A DNA stretch of 64,000 nt from Candidatus Blastococcus massiliensis AP3 (lineage in GTDB: Bacteria > Actinomycetota > Actinomycetes > Mycobacteriales > Geodermatophilaceae): contig NZ_HG931174.1 of the NCBI RefSeq assembly GCF_000582785.1, positions 522,427 to 586,426 of the forward strand, given 5' to 3'. Each line of letters begins with the position of its first letter. Positions within the stretch are counted from its first letter, which is position 1. The notes below the pieces were generated by a model. The model saw only the letters and a program-made list of their open reading frames with translations, had not been told where the DNA came from and did not search any database. Below, in pieces: positions 552 to 61,860 of this stretch. The translations under genes and the position numbers were made by a program.

Positions 552-1346
552 CTACACCCGGCGGGCGCGGGTGACCTGGCTGCGCGCGGCGAGCATGTCG
601 TCGGGCGGGTAGTCGACGCGCACGAGGGTCAGACCCCCGGCCGGCGCGACCGGCACCTCGCTGGCCCGCTCCTCCCGCGCGAAGAGGGATGCCGGCCACT
701 CGGGCGGACGCCGCCCCTCCCCCACGGCGGTCAGCGCCCCGACCAGGCTGCGGACCATCGAGTGGCAGAAGGCGTCGGCGGAGGCCTCCACCGTGACCAG
801 GTCGGCGTCCCGCGCGACGTCCAGCGCCAGCAGCGTGCGGATCGTCGTCGCCCCTTCGCGGCGTCGGCAGAAGGCCGCGAAGTCGTGCTCTCCGAGCAGC
901 AGCGCGGCCGCCGCCGCCATGGCCGGGACGTCGAGCGGGCGTGGCCACGCGGCTGTGTCGGCCCGGCGCAGCGGCGGTGGGCCCCAGGGGGCGTCGGTCA
1001 GGCGGTAGACGTAGTGCCGCCCGAGCGCGGCGAAGCGCGCGTCGAAGTCCGGGTGCGCCTCCGTGACTGCGGGGACCGCGATGTCCGGCGGCAGGATCCC
1101 CCGCAGCCGGCGGACCAGTCGCTCGCGCTGCCCCTCCCACAGCTCCCGGGGGACGTCGCAGTGCGCGACCTGCCCGGCGGCGTGCACGCCGGCGTCGGTG
1201 CGGCCGGCGACGGTGAGCTCGACGGGTGTGCGCAGGATGGTGCTCAGCGCCCCCTCGAGGTCCCCCTGCACGGTCCGAAGCTCCGGTTGACGGGCCCAGC
1301 CGTGCAGCGCCGTGCCGTCGTAGCAGACCGCCAGACGGAGACGCAC
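552..1346 (-). CDS. truA: tRNA pseudouridine(38-40) synthase TruA
   Basis: This 264-residue protein converts uridines 38-40 of the tRNA anticodon arm to pseudouridine. It has the [17 protein letters not shown] block that carries the catalytic aspartate, the [17 protein letters not shown] region and the [12 protein letters not shown]-like segment (here [16 protein letters not shown]) typical of TruA. The start is a GTG at 1344-1346, giving [12 protein letters not shown]; longer in-frame extensions run into the preceding gene and lack family similarity. It is the last gene of the rplQ cluster, a common actinobacterial arrangement. Confidence 0.93.
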
Positions 1347-55937: not shown

Positions 55938-58469
55938 TCAGCCGCGGACGAAGAGGCGCCGGTGCGCCGCGCCGTGCGCCGCCGTCCGGACGCCGGTACG
56001 CGCCAGCAGCCAGCTCTCCAACCGGTCGTCGGGCAGCGGCCGGCTCACCAGGAAGCCCTGCAGCTTGTCGCAGCCCATCTCGGCGAGCAGGTTGCGCGTG
56101 ACCTCGTCCTCGACCCCCTCGGCCACCACGCGCAGGCCGAGGTTGTGCGCCAGTTCGATGATCGACCGCGCGATGAACGACTCCCCCTGGCTGGTGGACA
56201 TGCCCAGCACGAAGGACTTGTCGATCTTGACCTCGTCGATCGGCAGCTGCCGCAACTGGGACAGCGAGGAGTAGCCGGTCCCGAAGTCGTCCATCGACAG
56301 CCGCAGACCCAGGTCGTGCAGGTCGGCGAGAACCGTGCTGTCGCGGACGGAGTCGCCGACGACGCTGCCCTCGGTCAGCTCCAGGGTGAGCAGCTCCCCC
56401 GGGACGCCGTGCCGCTGCAGGGCACCCCGCACACGGGCGACCAGGTCCGGCTCGGTGAGGCAGTGCGCGGAGAGGTTGACCGCGACCGACAGTGCGATGT
56501 CCTGGTCCAGCCAGCGCCGGCAGCGGGCCAGGGCGAGGTCCAGGACGTGGTCGGTCACCGCCCCGATCCGGCCGATCTGCTCGGCCAGGTGGATGAAGTC
56601 GTCCGGCGGGATCGAGCCGTAGCGCGGGTGCGCCCAGCGCACGAGCGTCTCCACCGAGACGATGTCGGAGGTCTGCGCGTCGATGATCGGCTGGAAGACC
56701 ACGCTGATCTGACCGTCGGCCATGGCCTGCTCGATCTCGGTGCCCAGCTGCAGGCGGCGCAGGCTCTGCTGGTCGAGCACGGGGTGGTAGCTGGCGACGC
56801 CGCCGGAGTCCGAGGCCGCGAGCAGGGCGACGTCGGCGCGCTGCATCAGCGTGCCCGAGTCGGTGCCGTGGACCGGCGCCGCCGCGACGCCGATGGTGAG
56901 CGTCACCTCGAGGTCCAGTCCGGCCACCCGCACACGGGTGGCCGCCGCCTCGCGCAGCCGTCGCGCGGCGCGCTCGGTGGCGGCGAGCGACAGGCCGGGC
57001 AGCAGGACGGCGAAGCGCTCGCTCTCCATCCGGGCCAGCAGTGCCTGCGGCGGGGCGTGCTCGCGCAGCAGCCCGGCGGTGACCAGGAGCAGCTCGTCGC
57101 TGGCCGCGTGCCCGAGCGTGTCGGTCACCTCGGTGTAGTTGCCCAGGGCGGCGAGGACGAGCCCGGCCCGCGCGCCGTCCGGATCGGCCTCGAGCAGGGC
57201 GTCGATCTCCGCGGCCAGCCGCTGCCGGTTGGGCAGTCCGGTGAGCCGGTCGTGATCGGCGTCGTAGCGGATCTGGGTGAGCAGCTGCTGGTGGCGGATG
57301 GCGGCGTTGACGTGCGTGAGCATCGACGTGAGCGCGGCGAGGTCGCTGTCGGCGAAGGAGACGACGACACTGCTGCGGTCGCAGACCTCGAGGTAGCCCG
57401 GCTCGCCACCGGCGGTCGCGAGCGGGGCCGCCAGCAGCTCGGTGACGCCGCGTCGGGCCAGGGCCGCGGCCTGCTCCTCGTCGGCGTGCGCCATGGAGAC
57501 CAGCACCGGCCCGTCGGCCTCCGCCACGGCCCGGCGGAAGACGTCGTCCGGGTCGCCGGGGCCGTCGTACCAGACGGCCCCGTCCGCGGCGGTGACGACG
57601 AGCTGCGGCGGCTCGTCGAGGTAGGGCGGCAGCCACATCGCCACCCGCTCGGCGTTGAGCAGCTCCTGGACCGCGTCGACGATCTGCCGCGTGCCCGCCT
57701 CGTCCGGGGTCACCTGCGCGACGCGCCGGGCGAAGTCGTAGACCCGCTGGACGCTGTGCCCGCGACGGGTGACCGCCCCGAAGTGGCGGTAGAGGAGCGC
57801 GAGAGCGCCCAGCAGCGGGGTCAGCAGCAGCCAGGCCCAGCCGGTGACGTGGATGAGCAGCAGCGCCGCGAGACCCACCACGACCGCGACCGGCCCCACG
57901 AGGAACACCGGGACGAAGAGGCTCGTCCACAGCGAGCGCCCGGGGTACCCCTGGGTGGCGGTGATGGCGCCGGCGAACAGCAGGGCCCCCAGCAGGTCGG
58001 CGACGAGGATCGCCACCAGGTAGGAGATCCAGGTGGCCGGCGAGGTCAGTTCACCGCTGGGCAGGACGGAGAGCACGGCGACGGCCGCGCCGACCTCCAG
58101 GACGGACACGGCGACCGTGGCCACCGCCTGCGGCCGCGGGAACCGCTGCCAGACGACGACGGCGGCGACGACGACGGCCTGGGCGATCGCCGTCCAGGCG
58201 CCACCCACCTGCACCAGCGCCACGACGATCGCGAGCTCACTGGCCGAGAAGGAGAAGGCCTGCCGGCGGAACTCGAAGTGCAGGTGGATCGACTCGACCG
58301 CGGCGAACGCCAGGAAGGCGGCGATCAGCGCGGGGATCGAGACCGTCAGCGACTGGGTCGCCAGCACCGCGACCATGACCGGCACGGCCAACACCACGCC
58401 GAGGACGGCGACGGTCACGGGCGAGCGGAAGGTCTGCGGGGGCGTCGCTCGAACGTCCTGCTCGGGCAC
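55938..58469 (-). CDS. Membrane-bound c-di-GMP protein: MASE-like, GAF-like, degenerate GGDEF, EAL
   Basis: About 843 residues. The first ~230 residues hold seven or eight hydrophobic segments, then a GAF-like region (about 245-390). The GGDEF domain (about 400-560) has MESERFAVLLPG where GGDEF should be, so cyclase activity is unlikely. The EAL domain (about 580-830) keeps the ETL variant of EAL, VNLSAH, LELTEG, MDDFGTGYSS, KIDKSFV and VVAEGVED, so it is probably an active c-di-GMP phosphodiesterase. GTG 58469 is chosen because AGGTGAG lies just before it; GTG 58475 or TTG 58481 are alternatives. Confidence 0.87.
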   Translation of the reverse strand: MPEQDVRATPPQTFRSPVTVAVLGVVLAVPVMVAVLATQSLTVSIPALIAAFLAFAAVESIHLHFEFRRQAFSFSASELAIVVALVQVGGAWTAIAQAVVVAAVVVWQRFPRPQAVATVAVSVLEVGAAVAVLSVLPSGELTSPATWISYLVAILVADLLGALLFAGAITATQGYPGRSLWTSLFVPVFLVGPVAVVVGLAALLLIHVTGWAWLLLTPLLGALALLYRHFGAVTRRGHSVQRVYDFARRVAQVTPDEAGTRQIVDAVQELLNAERVAMWLPPYLDEPPQLVVTAADGAVWYDGPGDPDDVFRRAVAEADGPVLVSMAHADEEQAAALARRGVTELLAAPLATAGGEPGYLEVCDRSSVVVSFADSDLAALTSMLTHVNAAIRHQQLLTQIRYDADHDRLTGLPNRQRLAAEIDALLEADPDGARAGLVLAALGNYTEVTDTLGHAASDELLLVTAGLLREHAPPQALLARMESERFAVLLPGLSLAATERAARRLREAAATRVRVAGLDLEVTLTIGVAAAPVHGTDSGTLMQRADVALLAASDSGGVASYHPVLDQQSLRRLQLGTEIEQAMADGQISVVFQPIIDAQTSDIVSVETLVRWAHPRYGSIPPDDFIHLAEQIGRIGAVTDHVLDLALARCRRWLDQDIALSVAVNLSAHCLTEPDLVARVRGALQRHGVPGELLTLELTEGSVVGDSVRDSTVLADLHDLGLRLSMDDFGTGYSSLSQLRQLPIDEVKIDKSFVLGMSTSQGESFIARSIIELAHNLGLRVVAEGVEDEVTRNLLAEMGCDKLQGFLVSRPLPDDRLESWLLARTGVRTAAHGAAHRRLFVRG

Positions 58470-58592
58470 TCTCACCTGCAATCCGCGGGGTGGATGGGCC
58501 CGGAGAGGCTAGCAACGCAGACGCCTCCCGGACCCCGGTTGCGCTCGCGCCGCGACTCGAAAGGGTCAGCAGCGGGACCGGCCCCGGGAACG

Positions 58593-58630
58593 CCGCAGGG
58601 CAGCCGGTCCGACGACCGGCTGCCCTGCGG
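58593..58630 (-). terminator. Perfect 17-bp hairpin between peptide gene and GGDEF/EAL gene
   Basis: CCGCAGGGCAGCCGGTC pairs completely with its complement across a 4-nt loop. It begins 36 nt after the RGIRWS peptide stop and ends 124 nt before the GGDEF/EAL start. It either ends the peptide transcript or attenuates entry into the c-di-GMP gene. No clear U-tract. Confidence 0.8.
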
Positions 58631-58665: not shown

Positions 58666-58740
58666 TCAGCTCCACCTGATGCCGCGGCTCCACCGGATAC
58701 CCCGGCTCCACCGGATCCCACGCTGAACGTTGCTGCTCAT
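58666..58740 (-). CDS. 24-residue peptide with three RGIRWS repeats
   Basis: On the minus strand ATG AGC AGC AAC GTT CAG is followed by three 18-nt units, each encoding RGIRWS, then TGA. GAGGAGG lies just before the ATG. The units differ at Arg, Gly and Arg codons (CGT/CGG/CGC, GGG/GGT/GGC, CGG/AGG) but every change is synonymous, strong evidence that the peptide is selected. It is cationic (six Arg) with three Trp and no signal peptide. I do not recognise the family. Candidates are a leader peptide, membrane-active peptide, signalling or modified peptide. Confidence 0.75.
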   Translation of the reverse strand: MSSNVQRGIRWSRGIRWSRGIRWS

Positions 58741-58763
58741 GACGCCTCCTCATTGGCATGACC

Positions 58764-58783
58764 GACTGCGATATGCGGCAGTC
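58764..58783 (-). promoter_or_regulatory. Inverted repeat upstream of RGIRWS peptide
   Basis: Arms GACTGC and GCAGTC flank an 8-bp core (GATATGCG), which itself carries an AT-richer patch. It lies 24 nt upstream of the peptide start, where a -10 would be. Candidate operator; the promoter hexamers themselves are not clear. Confidence 0.45.
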
Positions 58784-58929
58784 ACTTACGCGCGGGGGCA
58801 GAGCGTCGTTCGGTTCGGACCGCGCACGGAGAGTGCTTCCCCTCACCCCTGGGGGGCAAGCACCGAAGATCACGGCCGGGTGAACGACATGCATGTCGTC
58901 ACCCTCCGTACACGAAGATCAACGATTCG

Positions 58930-59621
58930 TCATCCAGATGGGCGAGGAAGCTCCTCCAGGACCTCGGTGACGACGTGGCCGCCGATCTCCACGGCCTTCA
59001 TCACACCCACTGCCCGGCCCGGGGGTCACGTCGGCGATCAGGCCCAGCCGGTCCGACTCCGGCGACTCCGGCGCCGTCGGCGTGCCGAGGAGGTCGGCGA
59101 CCCGCTCGTAGGCGACCGCGGCACGGGGATCGCCGCCCGCGGCGCCGGCCACCCCCTCGAGCGGGGAGTGTGGTCCCGTGTCCGGTGTGGCGTCCCAGGT
59201 CCCGTCCAGGTCGAACGCGACGGCGCCCACCGCCGGCACCTTCGCCAGGCCGCCGGTCTGCGGCACCGCCGAGGTGAGCCCGACGACCGCGCCGGTGAGG
59301 CTCCCCCGTCGCTCGGCCTGCTGCTGGGCCTCGAACTCGTCCAGGGCGTGCTCCAGCCGGGCACCGCACTCGCGGACGGCCGCGCCGGTGCGACGGCGGC
59401 AGCCGTGGCCCGGTCGACCGTCCACCCGGCCGGATCGCCGTCGTCACCCAGGCCCGTGGCGAGCGCCCTCAGCTCGCCCGCCAGCGCGGTGGCGAGCACG
59501 GGCTGACGATCCAGGAGCAGCCCGACCGCGGCGCGGAGCGGATCCCGTCGGCGGTGTCGGCCCTCCCGTGCAGCGACCGGCCGAGGGCCCGGACCTCCTC
59601 GGCCCGCATCTCGATGCTCAC
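58930..59621 (-). pseudogene. Frameshifted hypothetical protein gene
   Basis: Four successive pieces in different minus-strand frames read as one protein. Piece 1 starts at GTG 59621 (VSIEMRAEEVRALGRSLHGRAD); then VGLLLDRQPVLATALAGELRALAT; then AAVRECGARLEHALDEFEAQQQAERRGSLTGAVVG (in pieces) to DRLGLIADV; then AVGVMKAVEIGGHVVTEVLEELPRPSG and TGA at 58930-58932. The breaks lie near 59531-59537, 59385-59405 and 59011-59026. Family not recognised. Real decay or sequencing errors could both explain it. Confidence 0.7.
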
Positions 59622-59660
59622 CGGCGCAGTGCGGGCACGTCGAGCGACCTCTCGGGGCGT

Positions 59661-59745
59661 CGTCCACAGGTCGATCGGCCTGACCGGCCGCCACCCGATC
59701 GGGTGTCCACAGTGTCCACAGGATCTGTCCACAGGTCGTGGACAA
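59661..59745. repeat. Cluster of DnaA-box-like TGTCCACA motifs
   Basis: TGTCCACA occurs at 59704-59711, 59713-59720 and 59726-59733 on the plus strand, CGTCCACA at 59661-59668, and TTGTCCACG on the minus strand at 59737-59745. The actinobacterial DnaA box is TTGTCCACA. They lie in the 151-nt gap upstream of the TadE-like gene, which otherwise holds no gene. Confidence 0.6.
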
Positions 59746-59772
59746 CCGGCGCGTCGACCTACGCTGCCCGGC

Positions 59773-60204
59773 GTGCACCACCGGTGGGAGGACTCCGAGC
59801 GCGGCTCGACGCTGCCGTTCGTCCTGGTCTGCTGGCTGGTGGCCGCGCTCATGATCTTCGGCGCGATCGCGGCCTCCGACGCGTTCCTGGAGCAGCAGGA
59901 GGTCCAGGCGGTCTGCGACGGCGCGGCGCTGGCCGCCGCCAACCAGGCGGACGAGGCAGCGATCTACGCCGGCGGCGTCGGGACCGCGCTGCCGCTGACC
60001 CGCTCCAGCGCCCAGGCGGCCGTCGCCGACCAGCTCGGCGCGGGGGCTTCGGCGCTGGACGCGTGGACGGCCGAGACCGACGGCACCGAGGTCACCGTGC
60101 GCTGCACGCGGTTCGTGGACATCGCGTTCGGCTGGTTGTTCCTCGGCGGGCAGCAGTTGGAGCGCACGGCCACCGCCAGCGCTCGCGCACCCACCCTCGG
60201 CTGA
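59773..60204 (+). CDS. TadE/TadG-like pilus-assembly protein
   Basis: A 143-residue protein with a short basic/polar N-terminus (VHHRWEDSERGS), one membrane segment (LPFVLVCWLVAALMIFGAIAA, about 15-35) and an exported domain. The E at position 10 and GSTLPF resemble the prepilin-like TadE/G start, and AVCDGAALAAANQAD is typical of TadG-like proteins (Flp pilus assembly). GTG start with no ribosome-binding site; a TACGCT -10 (59760-59765) places the transcription start on the GTG, so it may be leaderless. No other tad gene is in view. Confidence 0.75.
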   Translation: MHHRWEDSERGSTLPFVLVCWLVAALMIFGAIAASDAFLEQQEVQAVCDGAALAAANQADEAAIYAGGVGTALPLTRSSAQAAVADQLGAGASALDAWTAETDGTEVTVRCTRFVDIAFGWLFLGGQQLERTATASARAPTLG

Positions 60205-60253: not shown

Positions 60254-60335
60254 TGGCGGGTGAAGGATTCGAACCTTCGAAGGCTAAGCCGACGGATTTA
60301 CAGTCCGCTCCCATTGGCCACTCGGGCAACCCGCC
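60254..60335 (-). tRNA. tRNA-Tyr (anticodon GTA)
   Basis: A class II tRNA with a long variable arm. Acceptor GGCGGGT/ACCCGCC, anticodon loop CTGTAAA (anticodon GTA), T-arm GGTTCGAATCC. A TATTCT -10 candidate lies at 60354-60359, 12 nt from a plausible start. Confidence 0.96.
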
Positions 60336-60420
60336 GTGCGGTGGTACCGGAGAAGAATACAAGACGGCGGACGCCGACCTCGGGCCCCCGAGCGGTGTCC
60401 GCGCGACGGAGGGAGTTCGC

Positions 60421-60912
60421 ATGGCCGACGCATCGTTCGACGTGGTCAGCAAGGTCGACCGCCAGGAGGTCGACAACGCTCTGAACCAGGCGGGCAAGGA
60501 GCTGTCGCAGCGCTTCGACTTCCGCGGCACCAACGCCACGATCGCCTGGGCGGGCGAGGAGGGCGTCACCCTCTCCGCCGACACCGAGGAGCGGGTCAGC
60601 GCCGCCCTGGAGGTCTTCAAGGAGAAGCTGATCAAGCGCAACATCTCGCTGAAGGTCCTCGACGCCGACGAGCCGCAGTCCTCGGGCAAGTCCTACAAGA
60701 TCTCCGCGCGGATCAAGCAGGGCATCGAGTCCGACGTCGCCAAGAAGATCGCCAAGCTCATCCGCGACGAGGGCCCGAAGGGCGTGCAGGCGCAGATCCA
60801 GGGCGACCAGCTTCGGGTCAGCGGGAAGAAGCGGGACGACCTGCAGGCGGTGCAGCAGCTGCTGCGCGGCGCCGACCTCGACGTCGCCCTGCAATTCGAC
60901 AACTACAGGTGA
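60421..60912 (+). CDS. YajQ-family nucleotide-binding protein
   Basis: A 163-residue cytosolic protein: [37 protein letters not shown] (in pieces) and [21 protein letters not shown]. The family has two ferredoxin-like domains and binds nucleotides, in Xanthomonas c-di-GMP. Whether this one binds c-di-GMP is unknown. It stands alone between tRNA-Tyr and the sigma factor gene. Confidence 0.95.
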
Positions 60913-60948: not shown

Positions 60949-61860
60949 GCGCCCGGGCAAGACGACATCGAGGCCCTGCACGACGACGGGGTCGCTCACG
61001 ACCTCCACAGCGGTGATCCGTCCGTCCGTGACGACGAACTCCAGCGCCGCACGCACCCGGCCGTCGGGGACGAACACCGCGCCGGGAGCCCCGTCGACGA
61101 GTGCCGGGAGGGCGGCCTGGGCCTTGCCGAGGAACGAGCGGGCGACCTCCTCGCGGCCGCCGAGGCGGCGGATCCCGCCGAGGGCCGCCACGGGGGCGTC
61201 CGCGCGGAGCACGACCTCCGGGTCCAGCACCGCGAGCAGCCCCGCGAGGTCGCCGCCCCGGGCGGCGGCCAGGAAGGCGCGCACCACCTCGTGCCGCCGC
61301 CCGACGTCTCCCGGGCCGGCCGCTCCCGGGCCGGCCGCTCCCGGGCCGGCCGCTCCCGGTGCGGCCTCCCGGACCCGGCGCCGGGCCCGGCTGGCCAGCT
61401 GGCGCACCGCGACCGGACTCCGGTCGAGGATCTCCGCCACCTCGCCGAACGGGACGGCGAAGAGGTCGTGCAGCACGAAAGCGAGCCGTTCCGGTGGCGT
61501 CAGGGTGTCCAGCACCACGAGCAGGGCCAGCCCGACGGAATCGGCCAGCACCGCCTCGGTCTCCGGCTCCGACCCCCCGTCGGCGTCCGGGGCATGCAGA
61601 CCCACCGGCTCCTCGCGGCGGGCCGCCCGGCGCCGCAGCATGTCGACGCAGACCCGCCCCACGACCGTGGTCAACCAGCCGCCGAGGTTCTCGACATCGC
61701 CGGCCCCGGTCCGCTGCAGGCGCAGCCATGCCTCCTGGACGGCGTCCTGCGCCTCGCCCCCGGCACCCAGCACGCGGCGCGCGACCGCCAGCAGGTGCGC
61801 CCGGTGCGCCTCGAACTGCTCGGCCAGGAGCTGGTCCGGCGCTGCCGCGTCCTCGCTCAC
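60946..61860 (-). CDS. ECF sigma factor with SnoaL-like C-domain (ECF41/SigJ type)
   Basis: A 304-residue sigma factor. Region 2: LLAEQFEAHRAHLLAVARRVLGAGGEAQDAVQEAWLRLQ (in pieces). Region 4: LTPPERLAFVLHDLFAVPFGEVAEILDRSPVAVRQLASRARRRVRE (in pieces). A linker of three GAAGP units (61311-61355 at DNA level) joins a SnoaL/NTF2-like domain (VVRAFLAAARGGDLAGLLAVLDPEVVLRAD in pieces) that regulates sigma activity in this group. GTG start. A matching promoter lies in the divergent gap. Confidence 0.92.
   Translation of the reverse strand: MSEDAAAPDQLLAEQFEAHRAHLLAVARRVLGAGGEAQDAVQEAWLRLQRTGAGDVENLGGWLTTVVGRVCVDMLRRRAARREEPVGLHAPDADGGSEPETEAVLADSVGLALLVVLDTLTPPERLAFVLHDLFAVPFGEVAEILDRSPVAVRQLASRARRRVREAAPGAAGPGAAGPGAAGPGDVGRRHEVVRAFLAAARGGDLAGLLAVLDPEVVLRADAPVAALGGIRRLGGREEVARSFLGKAQAALPALVDGAPGAVFVPDGRVRAALEFVVTDGRITAVEVVSDPVVVQGLDVVLPGR
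61311..61355 (-). repeat. Three perfect 15-nt tandem repeats in the sigma-factor linker
   Basis: CCGGGCCGGCCGCTC repeats three times without a mismatch on the plus strand and codes for the GAAGP units of the linker between region 4 and the SnoaL-like domain. The exact identity suggests recent expansion. Confidence 0.9.

Follow-up and report, generated by a model that had tools for sequence, protein, structure and literature searches.

A small gene on the minus strand (58666..58740) of a 64,000-nucleotide stretch of Candidatus Blastococcus massiliensis AP3 (hereafter, "the window") encodes a 24-residue peptide made of MSSNVQ and three RGIRWS units. Genes of this kind are conserved in the family Geodermatophilaceae, to which Blastococcus belongs, their repeat units are kept matched by selection on the peptide, and they are paired with one particular subfamily of membrane-GAF-GGDEF-EAL enzymes; in other orders of the class, the same type of unit forms the tails of subtilases beside that enzyme subfamily. 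We tentatively read the gene as a free-standing "W-tail," that is, a cationic peptide of (R)GxxWx units that would work with the downstream membrane-GAF-GGDEF-EAL protein, and we give this account a little under an even chance. The resemblance of the peptide to a free-standing W-repeat tail of the subtilases found beside the same enzyme subfamily had been missed in the preliminary description of this DNA.

The peptide itself had been described correctly: the translation of window positions 58740-58666 (minus strand) reads MSSNVQRGIRWSRGIRWSRGIRWS up to the stop, and the Shine-Dalgarno word GAGGAGG reported four bases before the ATG can be read from the sequence at 58745..58751 (minus strand). 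The stop-to-stop frame around the gene is only 27 codons long, so a longer N-terminus or a signal sequence is impossible in the window gene, and the peptide holds no hydrophobic segment or signal sequence. A search of its own genome with the peptide gave one strong match (E 1e-10) and a second at E 1, and at E ≤ 0.1 the same query matched in 23/23 genomes of the genus and 67/112 genomes of the family. On the basis of these own-genome, genus, and family matches, chance is excluded and the peptide gene is real. An SD-like word precedes 101/101 of the family genes described below, in agreement with the proposal of a small gene with translation signals. The peptide also lies below every cut-off in Pfam and NCBIfam (best Pfam E 1.8), as expected from the earlier statement that it belongs to no described family.

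The gene begins within a conserved promoter-like and 5' leader block that includes the ATG (58738..58861, minus strand), for which a model, R1, was built from 43 sequences. At E ≤ 0.01, R1 matches 101/112 Geodermatophilaceae genomes, and in 100/112 the block is followed by a W-unit peptide. We list 106 leader places, 101 of them directly followed by such a peptide (in 100 genomes); the five that were dropped are the place in G067, which has E 0.008 and lacks a peptide, and one second place each in G039, G044, G048, and G062. Start codons of the 101 genes are ATG (96) or GTG (5). At the order level (298 genomes), the strong R1 matches all fall within Geodermatophilaceae. Seven weak R1 matches outside the family (E 0.01-0.09) were treated as chance, as were peptide-profile matches outside the family, which were weak with few exceptions and mostly lay within long frames. 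Separately, the second leader copies in G039 (L178) and G044 (L198), ~0.6 and 1.9 kb from the first, precede a different small membrane-like protein (MSKRARSKKRRRTG.. and MPKKTRQSSPTV..), which raises the possibility that the leader is used by another gene as well.

Peptides of the family consist of a variable, often Ser/Thr-rich start and one to five units of the form R-x-x-[K/R, rarely S or M]-W-x. Examples are RGVKWT, RGHKWS, RGNRWS, RGASWS, and, from the part of the family genes in which position 2 is not Gly, RTNKWT and RNPRWG, among many others. Trp is invariant in tandem units, the N-terminal part is unconserved in both length and sequence, and a single unit is found in only 2/101 genes. 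Net charge is +3 to +9 across the 101 genes, and none of their repeat units contains an acidic residue.

In the window, the three 18-nt units (58669..58722, minus strand) encode the same amino acids with different synonymous bases. The preliminary description had counted six differing positions, all synonymous; synonymous they all are, but they occupy three columns (the third base of Arg1, the third base of Gly2, and the first base of Arg4). Its reading of this pattern as selection on the peptide sequence, with units that match in residues yet vary at synonymous sites, is borne out across the family. In 315 within-gene unit pairs, we counted 1345 identical codons, 515 synonymous differences, and 30 non-synonymous differences, to which two mis-registered genes (G090 and G099) both contribute. 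Identity at residue 3 falls from 98.4% within a gene to 27.8% between genes of one genus and 7.2% between genera, and the corresponding values for residue 6 are 99.0%, 27.3%, and 24.0%. Where Arg1 or Gly2 is shared, its codon is identical in ~50% of comparisons within a gene versus 39-41% and 32-33% between genes; agreement of only about half within a gene means that most units were not recently copied, though their amino acids match. Among unit pairs with at least two synonymous differences, 157/163 are identical in amino acids, compared with 431/7970 unit pairs between genes of a genus. For 326 gene pairs with differing unit residues, codons at the same unit index agree more often than those at different indices (0.393 vs. 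0.351; 1/300 shuffles as high), an excess suggesting that some units kept their place while residues changed in all units; this test is weak, and occasional replacement of the array is likely as well. These comparisons argue that selection acts on the peptide and keeps its units matched, the variable residues changing between species in all units together.

The paired gene (55938..58481, minus strand) encodes an 847-aa protein with a hydrophobic N-terminal region (several hydrophobic segments within its first 230 residues) followed by GAF, GGDEF, and EAL. Its GGDEF site is changed and reads MESERF, and the EAL site words ETLVRW, NLS, DDFGTG, KID, and EGVE are kept; judging from this combination, the enzyme should be a phosphodiesterase. 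It lies downstream on the same strand in 100/101 family genes, with the match beginning 225-436 nt after the peptide ATG, and the remaining gene sits at a contig end. The place upstream of a GGDEF/EAL gene had already been pointed out, and the check suggested then, a search for short repeat ORFs upstream of such genes in relatives, gave a positive result with a motif wider than guessed. Genes that we take to be MaoC, YajQ, and HtpX are often conserved around the locus too, so the pairing inside the family proves little by itself. The genome that contains the window has another enzyme of the subfamily (L324), and upstream of it no repeat peptide is present, the sole hit there being a 15-aa ORF.

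Other features of the neighborhood are the following. The ORFs orf247 and orf168 (58919-59781, minus strand) correspond to opposite ends of one longer region in relatives (e.g., G001, G003, G011), where the matches lie about -2700 and -650 relative to the start of the peptide. The window thus probably contains, between the peptide and the TadE-like gene, a gene that has been shortened or has decayed. At a distance of ~1.7-2.2 kb from the peptide, a conserved neighborhood includes a tRNA and a YajQ-like gene (60254-60912); in some bacteria, YajQ is a c-di-GMP-binding protein. Inside a sigma-factor-like gene (61860-60946) there is a 15-bp tandem repeat, CTCCCGGGCCGGCCG (61308-61366), which codes for AAGPG repeats.

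Enzyme orthologues elsewhere in the order carry the pairing beyond the family. We examined, with long flanks, 20 of the 21 loci returned from other families (L266 was left out; no such ORF was found there), and a MaoC, YajQ, or HtpX match lies near all 20. Short ORFs were sought by a fixed rule: a length of 15-75 aa, [GDN]xxW among the 15 C-terminal residues, an SD-like word, and a position within 600 nt. They are present at 13/20 orthologous loci versus 12/1071 other windows of those loci; one of the 13 (L272) has only 16 aa and may be chance, and 7/20 loci fail the rule, with L271 and L273 also showing W-ending ORFs under looser rules. The upstream ORFs differ in sequence from the Blastococcus peptide, the Trp motif being common to both. 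Their motifs include DGGSWTFA x4, DGNTWTFV x5, and GALWG x2, and other peptides end in DVVWGAG.., ..DGAIWG, ..GVVWL, and ..DFDWN. A hydrophobic segment is found near the N-terminus in six order-locus peptides tested. These counts indicate that the peptide-enzyme pairing is older than Geodermatophilaceae. As a separate observation, the DGGSWTFA and DGNTWTFV peptides (L247/L268 and L249/L270) are eight-residue Trp repeats at the equivalent place in another family, and they too match within a gene and differ between genes.

Across other orders of the class, 35/118 genomes have a match to the enzyme subfamily at E ≤ 1e-25, and before the enzyme one often finds long frames that end in tails of GAGWR, GRTWA, GLRWN, GATWS, GSSWR, GSTWT, or GSQWS. 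By a fixed rule, a W-tailed frame lies upstream at 13/28 best loci and 8/20 paralogous loci versus 3/1186 control windows, the motif rules having been set after examples were seen and applied identically to the controls. Three of the best loci with W-tails (L292, L295, L296) come from one genus, and the upstream sequence is truncated at three of the 28 (L290, L302, L303). By the rules, 13/28 best loci have no W-tail and no short ORF; L290 ends ..NGLRWY in an open frame and fails the rule, and a short hit in L309 looks like chance. All five W-tailed frames tested against Pfam are Peptidase_S8, and some of the subtilases have signal-like N-termini by eye. A search from the protease side, with one query in 148 genomes, gave 30 subtilase loci, of which 23 were readable (seven had no frame by the S8 pattern) and six of these were excluded for having no W-tail, the wrong frame, or too little downstream sequence. 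In the 17 remaining loci, where a W-tailed subtilase has 600 nt or more of downstream sequence, the enzyme follows in 14 (two of these matches are weak, E about 1e-14); this count is not independent of the enzyme search, since many loci are shared and the query was itself taken from a locus of this kind. Before other GGDEF/EAL genes, we found W-tails in 0/20 cases, one gene having a short ORF that fits a lax rule; 18 of these controls have no match to the membrane region and two a weak one, and in two (L390 and L401) the start is doubtful because the frame has just 184 and 189 residues, respectively.

Trp-repeat tails on subtilases occur in sequence databases, and we found no named family for the GxxWx tails. 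The five tails examined consist of 6-22 copies of one unit, and GAGWR x22 and GSSWR x19 are encoded with a wide range of synonymous codons, Ser for instance by both AGC and TCN. Both forms occur in one family (f43), which has subtilase tails (L291, L293, L298, L306) and a stand-alone peptide ending in ..EAGTRWGSADRGTRWG (L294). The window gene is like the tails in its repeated GxxWx units (R-G-I-R-W-S), in the match between units despite synonymous variation, and in the enzyme of the same subfamily, a membrane-GAF-GGDEF gene, that follows it. It is unlike them in having neither a protease nor a signal sequence, and peptides of its family add an Arg, giving a period of six residues, and have one to five units where the five tails have 6-22 copies. 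Searches of the genome that carries the window gave nothing at E ≤ 1e-40 for a W-tailed S8 and one weak match (E 0.1) for W-repeats. For three subtilases, the NCBIfam matches, which stay below cut-offs, were to models of proteases and, in a few weak cases, to unrelated models. In Pfam, the pentapeptide repeat GETHR (PF05671) matches the tail of one of five subtilases (L350; 24.8 bits vs. a cut-off of 22.4, with no single stretch passing the threshold), and Prion_octapep (PF03991) matches the DGGSWTFA peptide (E 0.00066, 20.1 bits, cut-off 32), which, unlike that family, contains no His; both matches look like low-complexity resemblance.

RNA folding of the 101 leaders shows no excess over shuffles (mean MFE z -0.09). 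Single folds paired GACGCTCTGCCCC with the SD region, but an RNA switch hiding the SD was dropped, as SD occlusion does not exceed that in shuffles, the SD being unpaired at 0.46 versus 0.40 in shuffles over the 101 leaders. A consensus 5' hairpin contains one pair with 13 two-sided changes, which by eye follow clades. With Rfam, the whole window yields four tRNAs only at the gathering score, and the peptide region at a lax threshold yields a best E of 0.5, all below gathering. In one relative (L029), positions 1070-1155 (plus strand), ~0.3 kb upstream of the leader block, resemble the c-di-GMP-II-GCG riboswitch weakly and probably by chance (E 0.31; 28.1 bits against a gathering score of 47.9). 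Upstream of the promoter-like block, an inverted repeat, GGTGACGACATG/CATGTCGTTCACC (58879..58903, no strand assigned, read from the sequence), is a possible regulator site. Repeated GTGAC/GTCAC words are seen at 58862-58960 (minus strand), and similar words occur in relatives by eye with varying spacing. Past the peptide stop, folding gives a GC-rich hairpin with 17-bp arms (58593..58630, minus strand), a probable terminator; by eye, most of 34 folded stretches (two uninformative) have a strong GC-rich hairpin at this place, the sequence of which is unconserved among relatives. A -10-like element, TTGCTAGCCT (58505..58516, minus strand), was read by eye. Most relatives read have TGTTAGCCT or close variants between the hairpin and the enzyme start, with TGTTACCTT or other variants in one genus, and this element is possibly the enzyme gene's own promoter.

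Position and strand before the enzyme, the strong hairpin past the stop, and the conserved 5' leader are what one would see if the gene were a leader peptide, with translation of a W- and Arg-rich ORF deciding read-through past the hairpin into the GGDEF-EAL gene. Known attenuation leaders such as trpL and TnaC likewise have a short ORF upstream of a larger gene and a hairpin between the two. Unlike in those systems, the units here co-vary as peptide: the variable x residues, implausible as a sensor, are kept matched between units. The equivalents of the window peptide have hydrophobic N-terminal segments or are subtilase tails, and the TGTTAGCCT-like element past the hairpin looks, by eye, like a separate promoter of the downstream gene. 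In place of a run of sensed codons, the Trp codons are six apart and the others vary synonymously, and neither the upstream leader fold nor SD occlusion exceeds shuffles. A terminator/antiterminator switch overlapping the ORF would also be expected of such a leader; the hairpin seen here lies past the stop. We consider attenuation unlikely. A different possibility is a multi-copy signal precursor, in which each unit would be released by cleavage as the same hexapeptide and would act as a species-specific signal that the membrane enzyme senses. Yeast alpha-factor precursors carry identical copies that are cut out as signal, and the present genes share with them several matching short copies per gene and a species-specific sequence; the coordinated change of copies between species and the neighboring protein with its hydrophobic N-terminal region also speak for this. 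However, the window peptide has no hydrophobic segment that could direct export, a signal sequence is impossible in its frame, and no known processing site is seen; the single unit in 2/101 genes and the five subtilase tails with 6-22 copies, which look structural, also make a precursor of this kind quite improbable.

The tandem, core-like units with their invariant Trp would suit a RiPP precursor, e.g., one crosslinked at Trp and Arg, but such a precursor should have a conserved leader part, and the N-terminal part here is unconserved. The queried neighbors, presumably MaoC, peptidase M1, TadE-like, YajQ, HtpX, sigma factor, and glyoxalase genes, are not modifying enzymes, and we regard this explanation as very unlikely. 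The net positive charge and the lack of acidic residues in the repeat units of the 101 genes would also fit an antimicrobial peptide, or one that binds nucleic acids, unrelated to the enzyme; that explanation leaves the specific pairing across orders unaccounted for, and units of other families such as DGGSWTFA are not basic, so we doubt it strongly. Of the preliminary interpretation, then, selection on the peptide, the small gene, the GGDEF/EAL context, and the absence of a described family stand, and the leader peptide and the modified-peptide precursor have lost ground.

We return to the reading of the gene as a free-standing W-tail. A pairing that is specific and crosses orders is most simply explained if the W-units act on the enzyme, probably on its membrane region, and the peptide is probably a ligand of its partner. 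In the mechanism we propose, the multi-pass membrane region would be where the W-units bind, and this binding would set the enzyme's c-di-GMP hydrolyzing (EAL) activity. Several matching units may raise avidity or may have to pack against one another, in which case a change in one unit would be kept only together with a change in all units. We infer the physical binding, the effect on activity, and the side of the membrane from comparative sequence data. The main difficulty is that peptides of the Geodermatophilaceae have no signal sequence, whereas several of those from other families have a hydrophobic N-terminal segment and some subtilases have signal-like N-termini by eye; it is therefore hard to see where all of them would act in common. 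More speculatively, and with considerable doubt, W-tails could be ligands of a new class, built from repeats that match one another and directed at a membrane c-di-GMP phosphodiesterase. They would comprise subtilase tails and freed, stand-alone peptides with units that change in concert, and each species would have a private peptide-receptor code for c-di-GMP control.

The peptide-enzyme pair appears to be undescribed, as suggested by our finding nothing on such peptides or tails in the open-access literature, which leaves out most subscription journals. To our knowledge, the signals for many membrane c-di-GMP enzymes are unknown. One such enzyme subfamily now has a candidate peptide partner that is genetically linked to it, and the repeats provide a directly testable case in which selection on the peptide, and not just recent DNA copying, keeps the units identical.
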